Notes under the pieces: generated by a model | The model's database searches: none | What the model was told of the DNA's origin: nothing | Seen by the model: only the letters and a program-made list of their open reading frames with translations | Shown: piece by piece, positions 49,366 through 51,826 of the stretch | Numbering within the stretch: the stretch's first letter is position 1 | How the letters are laid out: each line of letters starts with the position of its first letter | DNA from: Rubrivirga sp. SAORIC476 | GTDB taxonomy: Bacteria; Bacteroidota; Rhodothermia; Rhodothermales; Rubricoccaceae | Assembly: GCF_002283555.1 (NCBI RefSeq) | Contig: NZ_MVOI01000003.1 | Location: 1-64,000, forward strand | DNA: 64,000 nt | Direction of reading: 5' to 3' | Translations under genes and position numbers: made by a program

Positions 49366-50214
49366 CTAGCGAACGACCTGCACCGTCTGCGACGTACGAA
49401 CGCCGTCCGATTCGAGCACGACGACGTACGTCCCCGCCGAGACCGCGTCGAGGTCCAGCCGAACGCGCGCCGGCGAGTCGGCAGAGACGAGGCCGTCGAA
49501 CGCACGCGCGACCTCACGGCCCTGAATGTCGAACAGCGTCACGGTCGCCCGCGTCCGCTCGGTTGCGGTCGCCGTGACCCAGGCCTCGGAGCGAGCTGGG
49601 TTCGGCTGCACCACCGAGAGCGCCAGGCCGTCCGTGCGAGACGCGCCGTCGGCGACATCGACGAGCGGGGACGCGACCTGGACCGGGGCCTCGTCATCCA
49701 GCACGACGGCACCCGGACGGGTCCCAGGCGGACGTCCGGTGTCGAGCGCCTCCACACGGAGCGCGGGACCGGAGACGCGGTTCCGGGCAGCCAGCAGCGA
49801 CGCCTCGGTCCGCCCGTTGGCGGTCATCGCGTCGACCGCGACCGCGACGGTTCGGAGGGGGGCCGGGGCGGTGCCGTCCCGGCCGTCCGCCAGCGGTCCG
49901 TCGGAGACCTGTCGCTGGACCTGGGCCGGGAAGGCGAACGCGGCCGACAGGTCATCCGAGTCGGCGACGGTCCCGTCGGAGCGGCGCTCGGCCGCCTGCG
50001 TCGTGATCGCTGCCGAGGCGGAGGCCTCCGGTCGCCGGGTCTGGAGCCGGATGGCCTGGTCCTGGTCGTCGAAGAAGCTCAGCCCGACCGTCTCGGGGGA
50101 CGGCGCGAGCGGCGCTCCCGGCGCGTCGGTGTCTTCGGCGGCCGTCCGCTGCTGGGCGGAGGGGGCGACGGCGAGTCCGAGCGCGAGGCTTGCGGCGAGC
50201 GTGATGCGAAGCAT
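49366..50214 (-). CDS. Secreted protein with type IX (type A) sorting domain
   Basis: A 282-aa protein with a signal peptide (MLRITLAASLALGLAVAPSAQ) and a C-terminal T9SS sorting domain of about 85 residues: LALSVVQPNPARSEAWVT, VTLFDIQGREVARAFDG, and ending TYVVVLESDGVRTSQTVQV. These match the type A tail (PNP, then GREV, then YVV). The 150-residue middle is Thr/Ala/Asp-rich with no recognised domain. It follows the S74-domain gene by 16 bp on the same strand; an alternative ATG at 50238 would overlap that gene's stop. Being coupled to a tail-fibre-like protein suggests a surface complex. Confidence 0.85.
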   Translation of the reverse strand: MLRITLAASLALGLAVAPSAQQRTAAEDTDAPGAPLAPSPETVGLSFFDDQDQAIRLQTRRPEASASAAITTQAAERRSDGTVADSDDLSAAFAFPAQVQRQVSDGPLADGRDGTAPAPLRTVAVAVDAMTANGRTEASLLAARNRVSGPALRVEALDTGRPPGTRPGAVVLDDEAPVQVASPLVDVADGASRTDGLALSVVQPNPARSEAWVTATATERTRATVTLFDIQGREVARAFDGLVSADSPARVRLDLDAVSAGTYVVVLESDGVRTSQTVQVVR

Positions 50215-50230
50215 GGAAGTCGGGATCGGG

Positions 50231-51826
50231 CTACTCATGGGCCGTACCGAGGAGCGCCTCGATGCGCGCGAGGCGCGCGGCGAGGGCCGCGTTCTCAGCC
50301 TCCAGTTCCGCGATGCGAGCGGTCGCCGCCTCGCTTCGGGTGTGGAGGGCCTGGATGGCCGCCAGCGACACGCCGTCGGCGTCCACCATCGAGATGGTGG
50401 TCTCGCCCTGGCCGAGGCCGAAGGTGCGGTAGAAGTCCTGCGCCATCGGGCCCATGTGGGCGATGCCGTCGGCCGCGATGTACTCCCACGTCGAGATCGG
50501 GAGCCCAGCGACGCCCGCCAGGACGGCCTCGGGGTCGACCGCTACGATGTCCTCCTTGACGTTGACATCCGAGGAGCCGTTCACCGTACCCGCCGTCGTG
50601 AGGTTGCCCGAGAGGTCGAGGTTGAGAAGCTGTCCGGCGCCGCCCACGGCCTGGTTGGTGACGCGGAAGGCGAACGCTTCTCCCGTCAGGTCGCCGATCA
50701 CGCTCAGGCTCCGGTCCACGCGGACGTCGGTCCGGAACCGGGAGAGATCGTCGTCGATGCCGTCCCCGTCGACGTCGAAGTCCGTGCCGACCTCGAAGAT
50801 GGTGTTGGCAGCGGCATTGCTGGGATCGGTGAACCCGACGAGCACCTGCGTGTCGACGCGCACGCGCCCGCCCTTGCCGATGCGCACCTCCGGGGTGGTG
50901 GTCGCCACACCGAGTTCGAGGCGATCCGCGTACATGTCGATGGAACTGGTCCCGGCGTTCGGGCGAACGCGGAAGGGCAGCTTGGACCCGCCGTTCACGT
51001 CACGGATGAAGAAGTTGGTCTCGTTGGCAGCCACGTCCCACGTGTAGGGGGTGAAGCCCGACGCACCGCTCTGCTCCAGGCGGAGCGTCGGCGTGTCGCC
51101 GTTGGACGAGTGCAGCTCCACGACCGGGGTGTCCGTACCGAACCCGACGCTGCCGTTGGCGGCGACGTAGATCGACCAGTTGGGAGCGCCCGCGCGGATG
51201 CGGAGCGGCGACCGATTGCCCGTCGCGTCGTCGATCGAGAAGTAGCTCTGGCCTCCGTTGGCCGAGTCGTTGATCGTGATGCGCCAGTCGTTGGACGGGA
51301 AGCTGCCGCTGTTGGACGTGTCGTCGAAGTGGATGCGCAGGTTGTTCTCCTTGAGCCGCACGGTGTCGAAGCCGAAGTTCTCGCCGTTGACGCAGTCCTG
51401 GCCGAAGCAGCCGCTGCCACGCACGATGAGGTCGTCGTTGAACACCTGGTCGAGCAACGGCGACGAGACGGCCGCGCCATGCCGGATCTCCAATGTGCCG
51501 CGCTGCAGGAGTGCCGTCGACGTCTCGGCCTCGTCGAGGTCGGTCGGCATCAGCACGAGTTCGTACCCGTAGAAGCCGTCGGCCAGGGGCTCGTCCCCGA
51601 TCTCGGAGGGGTGAACCCGGACGGACTCGCCCGCGGTAAAGGCATGGCGGTATTCGAGTCCGCTCGGAGCGGTCAGCGTCACCAGTGCCTGCGAGAACGC
51701 GGCGTCCGGGCTCCACACCACGGCCCCGTCCTGCACGGCGGTGGGGACCGGGGCAGCGGCGAAGGCAGGAGCCACCAGGAGGAGAGCGAGCATGGCCAAG
51801 AGAGGCCGCGAGAATCGATGAGGCAT
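50231..51826 (-). CDS. Secreted tail-fibre-like protein with S74 self-cleaving chaperone domain
   Basis: A 531-aa exported protein: signal MPHRFSRPLLAMLALLLVAPAFAAA, then a beta-rich stalk with repeated INDSANGGQSYFSID and GFGTDTPVVELHS-like modules, as in trimeric fibres. A C-terminal intramolecular chaperone domain (peptidase S74) covers about residues 420-531. The catalytic Ser-Lys dyad is in SSDVNVKEDI, spaced as in endosialidase (SDxxxK). The hallmark block GIAHMGPMAQDFYRTFGLG and the terminal coiled coil (ARIAELEAENAALAARLARIE) follow. Such domains drive trimer folding and are then released. It is cotranscribed with the T9SS-tail protein. Confidence 0.88.
   Translation of the reverse strand: MPHRFSRPLLAMLALLLVAPAFAAAPVPTAVQDGAVVWSPDAAFSQALVTLTAPSGLEYRHAFTAGESVRVHPSEIGDEPLADGFYGYELVLMPTDLDEAETSTALLQRGTLEIRHGAAVSSPLLDQVFNDDLIVRGSGCFGQDCVNGENFGFDTVRLKENNLRIHFDDTSNSGSFPSNDWRITINDSANGGQSYFSIDDATGNRSPLRIRAGAPNWSIYVAANGSVGFGTDTPVVELHSSNGDTPTLRLEQSGASGFTPYTWDVAANETNFFIRDVNGGSKLPFRVRPNAGTSSIDMYADRLELGVATTTPEVRIGKGGRVRVDTQVLVGFTDPSNAAANTIFEVGTDFDVDGDGIDDDLSRFRTDVRVDRSLSVIGDLTGEAFAFRVTNQAVGGAGQLLNLDLSGNLTTAGTVNGSSDVNVKEDIVAVDPEAVLAGVAGLPISTWEYIAADGIAHMGPMAQDFYRTFGLGQGETTISMVDADGVSLAAIQALHTRSEAATARIAELEAENAALAARLARIEALLGTAHE

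Follow-up and report, generated by a model that had tools for sequence, protein, structure and literature searches.

An S74 fibre gene and a T9SS-tail gene form a recurrent pair in Rubrivirga and related bacteria and may serve one cell-surface fibre

Organization of the Gene Pair

The window analyzed here is a 64,000-nucleotide stretch of Rubrivirga sp. SAORIC476 (contig NZ_MVOI01000003.1, positions 1 to 64,000), and all features described below lie on its minus strand. The S74 fibre gene P0001 (50231..51826, 531 aa) is followed by P0002 (49366..50214, 282 aa), a gene whose product bears a type IX sorting (T9SS) tail. The former is supported by a PF13884 match and an SDxxxK dyad, the latter by PF18962 and TIGR04183, and both by ortholog alignment, thus confirming the two ORFs that a first-pass annotation had placed at 49366-51826. 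The gap of 16 bp that it gave between them holds if P0002 starts at the ATG at 50214, but not if the possible longer start at the in-frame ATG at 50238 is used, which gives an 8-bp overlap with the end of the S74 gene; the P0002 homologue of a genome of the same family (G003) likewise has an in-frame ATG overlapping the S74 stop. The two genes may well be co-transcribed. A promoter scan detected none, and the terminator-like hairpin of 13 pairs located 3′ of P0002 (49312..49341) is weakly supported, as the scan found one hairpin against 0.8 expected in shuffles, with a fold z of -1.74. Five neighbouring ORFs of the window were scanned with Pfam and correspond to lon, an HHH protein, rsgA, a FAD monooxygenase and one ORF with no match; no phage-like or injection gene was found among them, in line with the absence of phage genes first noted. 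The same genome carries a second S74 gene (L292, 4489-6396 on contig C6), which has no T9SS-tail gene behind it.

P0001 consists, in order, of a signal peptide, an Ig/FnIII-like N-domain, a conserved but unnamed fibre domain (hereafter FD), a stalk, the S74 chaperone and a long C-terminal helix. The signal peptide (residues 1-24, 51755..51826) was read by eye, as was that of P0002; the model places a helix at residues 8-22. The N-domain (residues 25-118, 51473..51754) is a sandwich according to its structure model (pLDDT about 75-94 for residues 31-120, mostly about 90) and to its fold matches, where FnIII rows appear at a Z of about 8, this being a common fold. FD (residues 119-316, 50879..51472) has no Pfam or NCBIfam family. 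The stalk (residues 317-418, 50573..50878) is poorly conserved in the alignment and low in pLDDT; both parts were modelled as monomers, with a confidence that is middling or low. The S74 chaperone together with the C-terminal helix occupies residues 419-531 (50234..50572).

Concerning the chaperone, the proposed Ser-Lys pair in SDxxxK spacing is intact (Ser419-Asp-Val-Asn-Val-Lys424) and PF13884 matches residues 419-467 above its cut-off (E-value = 9.4e-8, 32.7 bits, cut-off 22). Its extent had to be corrected, since the Pfam match is followed by a long helix, at residues 480-530 in the model. Ser419 (codon 50570-50572), Lys424 (50555-50557) and His457 (50456-50458) are invariant in the alignment of P0001 with its two closest relatives, and the S419 and K424 columns are at least 90% conserved in 54 rows, many of them picked for bearing the motif. 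The S74 part was modelled confidently; its best Foldseek row is the MyRF ICA (E-value = 5e-3, none below 0.001), with the phage T5 fibre ranking below it. A cut before Ser419 is predicted from the sequence, and P0001 would be expected to trimerise, to cleave itself and to reside on the cell surface.

P0002 comprises a signal peptide, about 180 residues with no Pfam or NCBIfam family and a type A T9SS sorting tail (residues 204-282, 49366..49605 with the stop). The tail is slightly above the cut-offs of both PF18962 (28.1 bits, cut-off 27) and TIGR04183 (27.1 bits, cut-off 23), which upholds the sorting tail claimed for the second protein. The stretch at 49732..49887 encodes three GR pairs (DGR at residues 110-112, NGR at 133-135 and TGR at 159-161), and the pairs themselves (111-112, 134-135 and 160-161) are all invariant among three orthologues. 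T9SS machinery was detected in this genome (SprA_N, E-value = 3.5e-70), along with eight PorV family matches over the cut-off (best E-value = 9.3e-94), and P0002 is presumably exported by this system.

Conservation of the Pair in the Family and the Phylum

An S74 gene is present in three of the nine genomes of the family, the source genome included (G000, G003 and G004), and a P0002 homologue is located directly behind it in each. The six others (five of them 81-91% complete and one 93%) gave no P0001 match and no PF13884 match, and P0002 was matched by its tail only. P0001 is 48% and 46% identical to its two orthologues, and P0002 49% and 35%. The whole neighbourhood of G003 is common with the source genome, so its pairing is not independent; G004 shares lon nearby and few other genes, and since it keeps the pair though most neighbours differ, the pair has been maintained through rearrangement.

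The same gene order was found far more widely. With runs of S74 genes collapsed, a T9SS-tail gene (same strand, within 150 bp) directly follows the S74 gene in 33 of 83 cases, representing 12 of 22 families; without collapsing, it is the next gene for 29 of 84 S74 genes. Controls from 19 stretches of 20 kb of the same genomes, hand-chosen and not randomly drawn, yielded one such next gene among 285, and one among the 82 secreted-like controls (Fisher p = 9e-11), while genes at a greater distance within the S74 loci gave 1/170. The position profile of T9SS-tail genes peaks at +1 (29/75), compared with 17/67 at +2 and 12/69 at -1, and falls to 2/54 and 2/44 four genes away. The remaining 50 of the 83, which include the second S74 gene of the source genome, have no T9SS-tail gene directly behind, and some lineages do not pair at all (e.g., 0/8 in family f18, 0/5 in f26 and 0/4 in f39). 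In f18, the S74 genes (L312, L313, L316, L317, L320 and L321) have a rhomboid/rhombosortase-like gene about 80-240 bp downstream and no T9SS-tail gene.

The loci counted comprise 55 of the 56 PF13884 loci of the order sample (114 genomes) and, from outside the order, 34 stretches of a longer list (395-genome phylum sample), mostly the better-scoring ones. S74 ORFs repeated over loci (identical last 120 residues), those with no visible downstream gene, and L264 and L287-L291, where Pfam gave an S74 match that our own model missed, were dropped before counting. T9SS tails were called with a profile seeded on that of P0002, and both counting models, for T9SS and for S74, derive from the same loci that were counted. 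NCBIfam placed eight of ten checked tails over its cut-off, with one below and one unlisted; among 31 neighbours left uncalled by our profile it recognised three more tails, one of type A and two of type B. The co-occurrence in relatives that the first-pass annotation had put forward as a check is borne out, by both genes in three of nine family genomes and by enrichment across the phylum, and the link between the two genes gains support accordingly. The recurrence in many related families suggests that the tagged protein helps the fibre to reach its position on the cell surface. In the open-access literature searched (titles and abstract starts), a description of S74-T9SS pairing was not found.

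Seven ORFs (six plus L142) carry S74 and a T9SS tail in one chain, all with S and K intact. As the tail follows an intact S74 there, both can share a chain, and the argument that a self-cleaving fibre cannot keep a tail is not strict. Of the S74 domains aligned from the phylum loci (84 in all), 78 have an S/K catalytic dyad and six a C/K one, Cys replacing the catalytic Ser in the latter (L250-L325).

The Fibre Domain and the [DN]GR Peptide

FD spans about 190 residues, and its alignment columns average 61% identity in 81 rows (loci L083-L161). No Pfam or NCBIfam model covers it across P0001 and 54 FD proteins; in the latter, Pfam reported S74 in 52 and otherwise coiled-coil noise, and NCBIfam matched four families at an E-value of 0.01, none of them relevant. 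A GTDB contig scan yielded at least 531 confirmed relatives, of which 79 loci were kept, and the rows of the FD tree bear nine phylum labels, namely Acidobacteriota, Pseudomonadota, Verrucomicrobiota, Planctomycetota, Chloroflexota, Bacteroidota, Thermodesulfobacteriota, Myxococcota and Aminicenantota. Phyla are mixed in this tree, where the 14 rows of the source phylum need seven changes, at least three by well-supported branches, many forks being open and some branches long; FD has therefore probably been exchanged between phyla. Some phyla that carry FD fibres are not known to possess a T9SS, and hence FD does not need one.

In the source phylum FD is rare, with long matches in 4 of 395 genomes, and the order of genome G292 (123 genomes) gave one full match, that of G292 itself, whose FD protein (L250) has no S74 and no adjoining T9SS gene. 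Nine T9SS pairs (one of them, L131, having no phylum label) and one same-chain fusion were counted among the 11 judgeable FD fibres of the phylum, three further FD loci being cut by contig ends. Regarding structure, the best fold row for the FD model is the T4 gp34 fibre (E-value = 3e-3), Bdellovibrio fibres appear near an E-value of 0.1, and BFVD returns tail-fibre-like proteins (best E-value = 2.5e-5). These rows, obtained with a predicted model, fit a trimeric fibre shaft and are no proof of one.

Several arrangements were observed around FD genes of other bacteria. The N-domain can be encoded on its own, by a small gene for a secreted protein that immediately precedes the FD gene (L105, L107, L111, L112, L146, L147, L161, L114, L096, L097 and L103). 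Large secreted repeat proteins with an FxPxTIGPGS start, which we take to be DUF7933-like, lie beside FD genes in L090, L093, L101, L110, L099, L144 and L157, several of them within 40 bp and on the same strand, and the proteins encoded directly downstream in L102, L107, L112, L121 and L147 presumably resemble ASPIC/UnbV or FG-GAP. In several genomes four to six FD genes are arrayed in tandem (L104, L148, L089, L132 and L145), and on plasmids of marine Alphaproteobacteria they are annotated as tail fiber domain-containing or hypothetical proteins.

Viral sequences match a different part of P0001. In IMG/VR, 58 loci match it from residue 399 onward only, two records of a phage collection match residues 419-497, and FD was not found by sequence in either; PHROGs matches belong to virion and tail fibre families. 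A prophage origin was rejected on this ground, viral matches being confined to residue 399 onward.

The partners of FD fibres have a short peptide in common: [DN]GR precedes the tail in each of the nine T9SS partners, with 16 copies against 1.13 expected, although these nine represent three lineages (five Saprospirales-like, three of the own family and the one of G074). By comparison, the peptide is present in 2 of 23 partners of non-FD S74 proteins, and in 26 of 91 other T9SS-tail proteins with 37 copies against 17.2 in shuffles, about twice. When 19,683 tripeptide patterns were tried, only [DN]GR and the broader [DN]G[KR], which contains it, occurred in all nine partners ([DN]GR was present in 28 of 106 other T9SS proteins in this test), and each of 20 shuffled sets gave at most one universal pattern, always a very common one. 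Outside the T9SS phyla, direct neighbours of FD genes hold 28 copies against 15.6 expected (97 ORFs, many spurious). Where the FD gene lacks a fused N-domain, [DN]GR is found in 12 of 18 upstream secreted-like proteins (15 of 18 with TGR), seven of the 12 being one homologous group from marine Alphaproteobacteria; most of these small upstream genes are the free N-domain. Fused N-regions contain it in 10 of 83 cases, which rules it out as a mark of fused N-domains, just as the 2/23 above rules it out as a general marker of S74 partners. We hypothesize that [DN]GR serves for docking where FD has to be bound by a partner on a separate chain. For the Saprospirales partners, a trimeric coiled coil was rejected as unproven, since between 31 and 106 of 200 shuffles attained the heptad score.

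Proposed Mechanism and Alternatives

The reading that we favour, which we regard as evenly poised between right and wrong, is that P0001 and P0002 form a unit for one trimeric fibre of the cell surface, in which the T9SS-sorted P0002 carries or anchors P0001. P0001 would enter the periplasm through its signal peptide, where the S74 domain would join three chains and then cut itself off before Ser419, leaving the N-domain, FD and stalk as the mature fibre. With the C-terminus discarded along with the chaperone, that fibre would have no C-terminal T9SS tail. P0002, as a type A substrate, would supply one, being exported through SprA/PorV and either taking the fibre along or holding it after both have arrived on the surface. 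Their likeliest contact would be that of the repeated [DN]GR peptides of P0002 with FD; export and docking are both inferred here. A wider version, in which a general trans-sorting mode of the T9SS has a tail-less, self-cleaving trimeric fibre carried or anchored by a tailed partner docking FD through [DN]GR, the same peptide serving separate N-domains in other phyla, is speculative and in our judgement unlikely.

A weaker but serious possibility is that both proteins serve surface attachment without touching, the fibre leaving by another route and P0002 alone acting as an adhesin or matrix protein. The T9SS partners of non-FD S74 proteins do differ widely in length and make-up, and another export route is needed anyway for FD fibres in phyla where no T9SS is known; against this, S74 and a T9SS tail are fused in the same chain in some proteins, and [DN]GR tracks FD and not S74 generally. 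Rather improbable is a role of P0002 as a maturation or capping factor used once in assembly, such as one that keeps the trimer together up to the release of the chaperone: a three-fold fibre would be well matched by the three GR pairs of P0002 and the three [DN]GR copies of the G074 partner, and the same peptide occurs on separately encoded N-domains in other bacteria, but the T9SS tail is a surface-sorting signal that a purely periplasmic helper would not need. That the two genes are chance neighbours kept by descent only is very improbable, for although the pairing in G003 counts for little with its entire neighbourhood in common, G004 retains the pair amid mostly different neighbours and the gene order recurs in 12 of 22 families.

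Phage tail fibres are the classic setting of S74. According to PMC8213781, S74 is also reported in eCIS operons, and this, together with the PHROGs families and the resemblance of the FD model to phage fibres in BFVD, could suggest that P0001 is a domesticated phage or contractile-injection tail fibre with P0002 as an incidental neighbour; such an origin is hardly credible, given the signal peptide and N-domain, the five scanned neighbours with no phage-like gene, viral matches on the S74 end and none on FD, and a pairing conserved in the family and enriched in the phylum.

If P0001 and P0002 do form one fibre unit, a fibre that sheds its C-terminus beside a tailed partner would offer a means of exporting or anchoring a structure of several chains, and would show how phage-type fibres have been taken into Bacteroidota-like cell surfaces several times. 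FD, about 61% conserved over nine phyla and having no family model, is well suited to structural study.

Comparison with Known Systems

T9SS cargo is thought of as proteins with their own C-terminal tail, and S74 chemistry is known from phage proteins. Like the S74 intramolecular chaperones of the phage T5 fibre, endosialidase and MyRF, P0001 has the domain match and the catalytic dyad; unlike them, it is an exported bacterial protein, and set against the phage S74 proteins, its FD has no sequence counterpart in IMG/VR or the phage collection.

P0001 also resembles the S74 subgroup of the Bdellovibrio mosaic adhesive trimer (MAT) fibres, which PMC10769870 describes as surface displayed, trimeric and self-cleaving: it is likewise chromosomal, with a signal peptide, a beta-rich N-domain, a shaft and a C-terminal SDxxxK S74. 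Self-cleavage, trimerisation and surface display were demonstrated for a Bdellovibrio fibre and are expected by analogy for P0001. The fibres Bd2133, Bd3182 and Bd2439 appear among the FD and P0001 fold rows at E-values of 0.09-0.13, while the MAT N-terminal model NF053851 matched neither P0001 (NCBIfam, E-value 0.1) nor any of 54 FD proteins (E-value 0.01). P0001 differs further in having FD and a T9SS partner gene, neither of which is mentioned in the passages of PMC10769870 consulted.

Concerning P0002, its signal peptide and a tail over both cut-offs are those of type A T9SS substrates (TIGR04183, PF18962), whose tails are recognised by PorV according to PMC12618676; unlike typical ones, it has repeated GR pairs before the tail in place of a Pfam or NCBIfam domain. 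The adjoining of a substrate gene and a dedicated partner gene recalls type B substrates with their PorP/SprF-like shuttle genes, although there, according to PMC12618676, the partner is a shuttle locating the substrate, while here it is an S74 fibre with no tail of its own. The pair is thus a variant that combines known kinds, an S74 surface fibre and a T9SS substrate.
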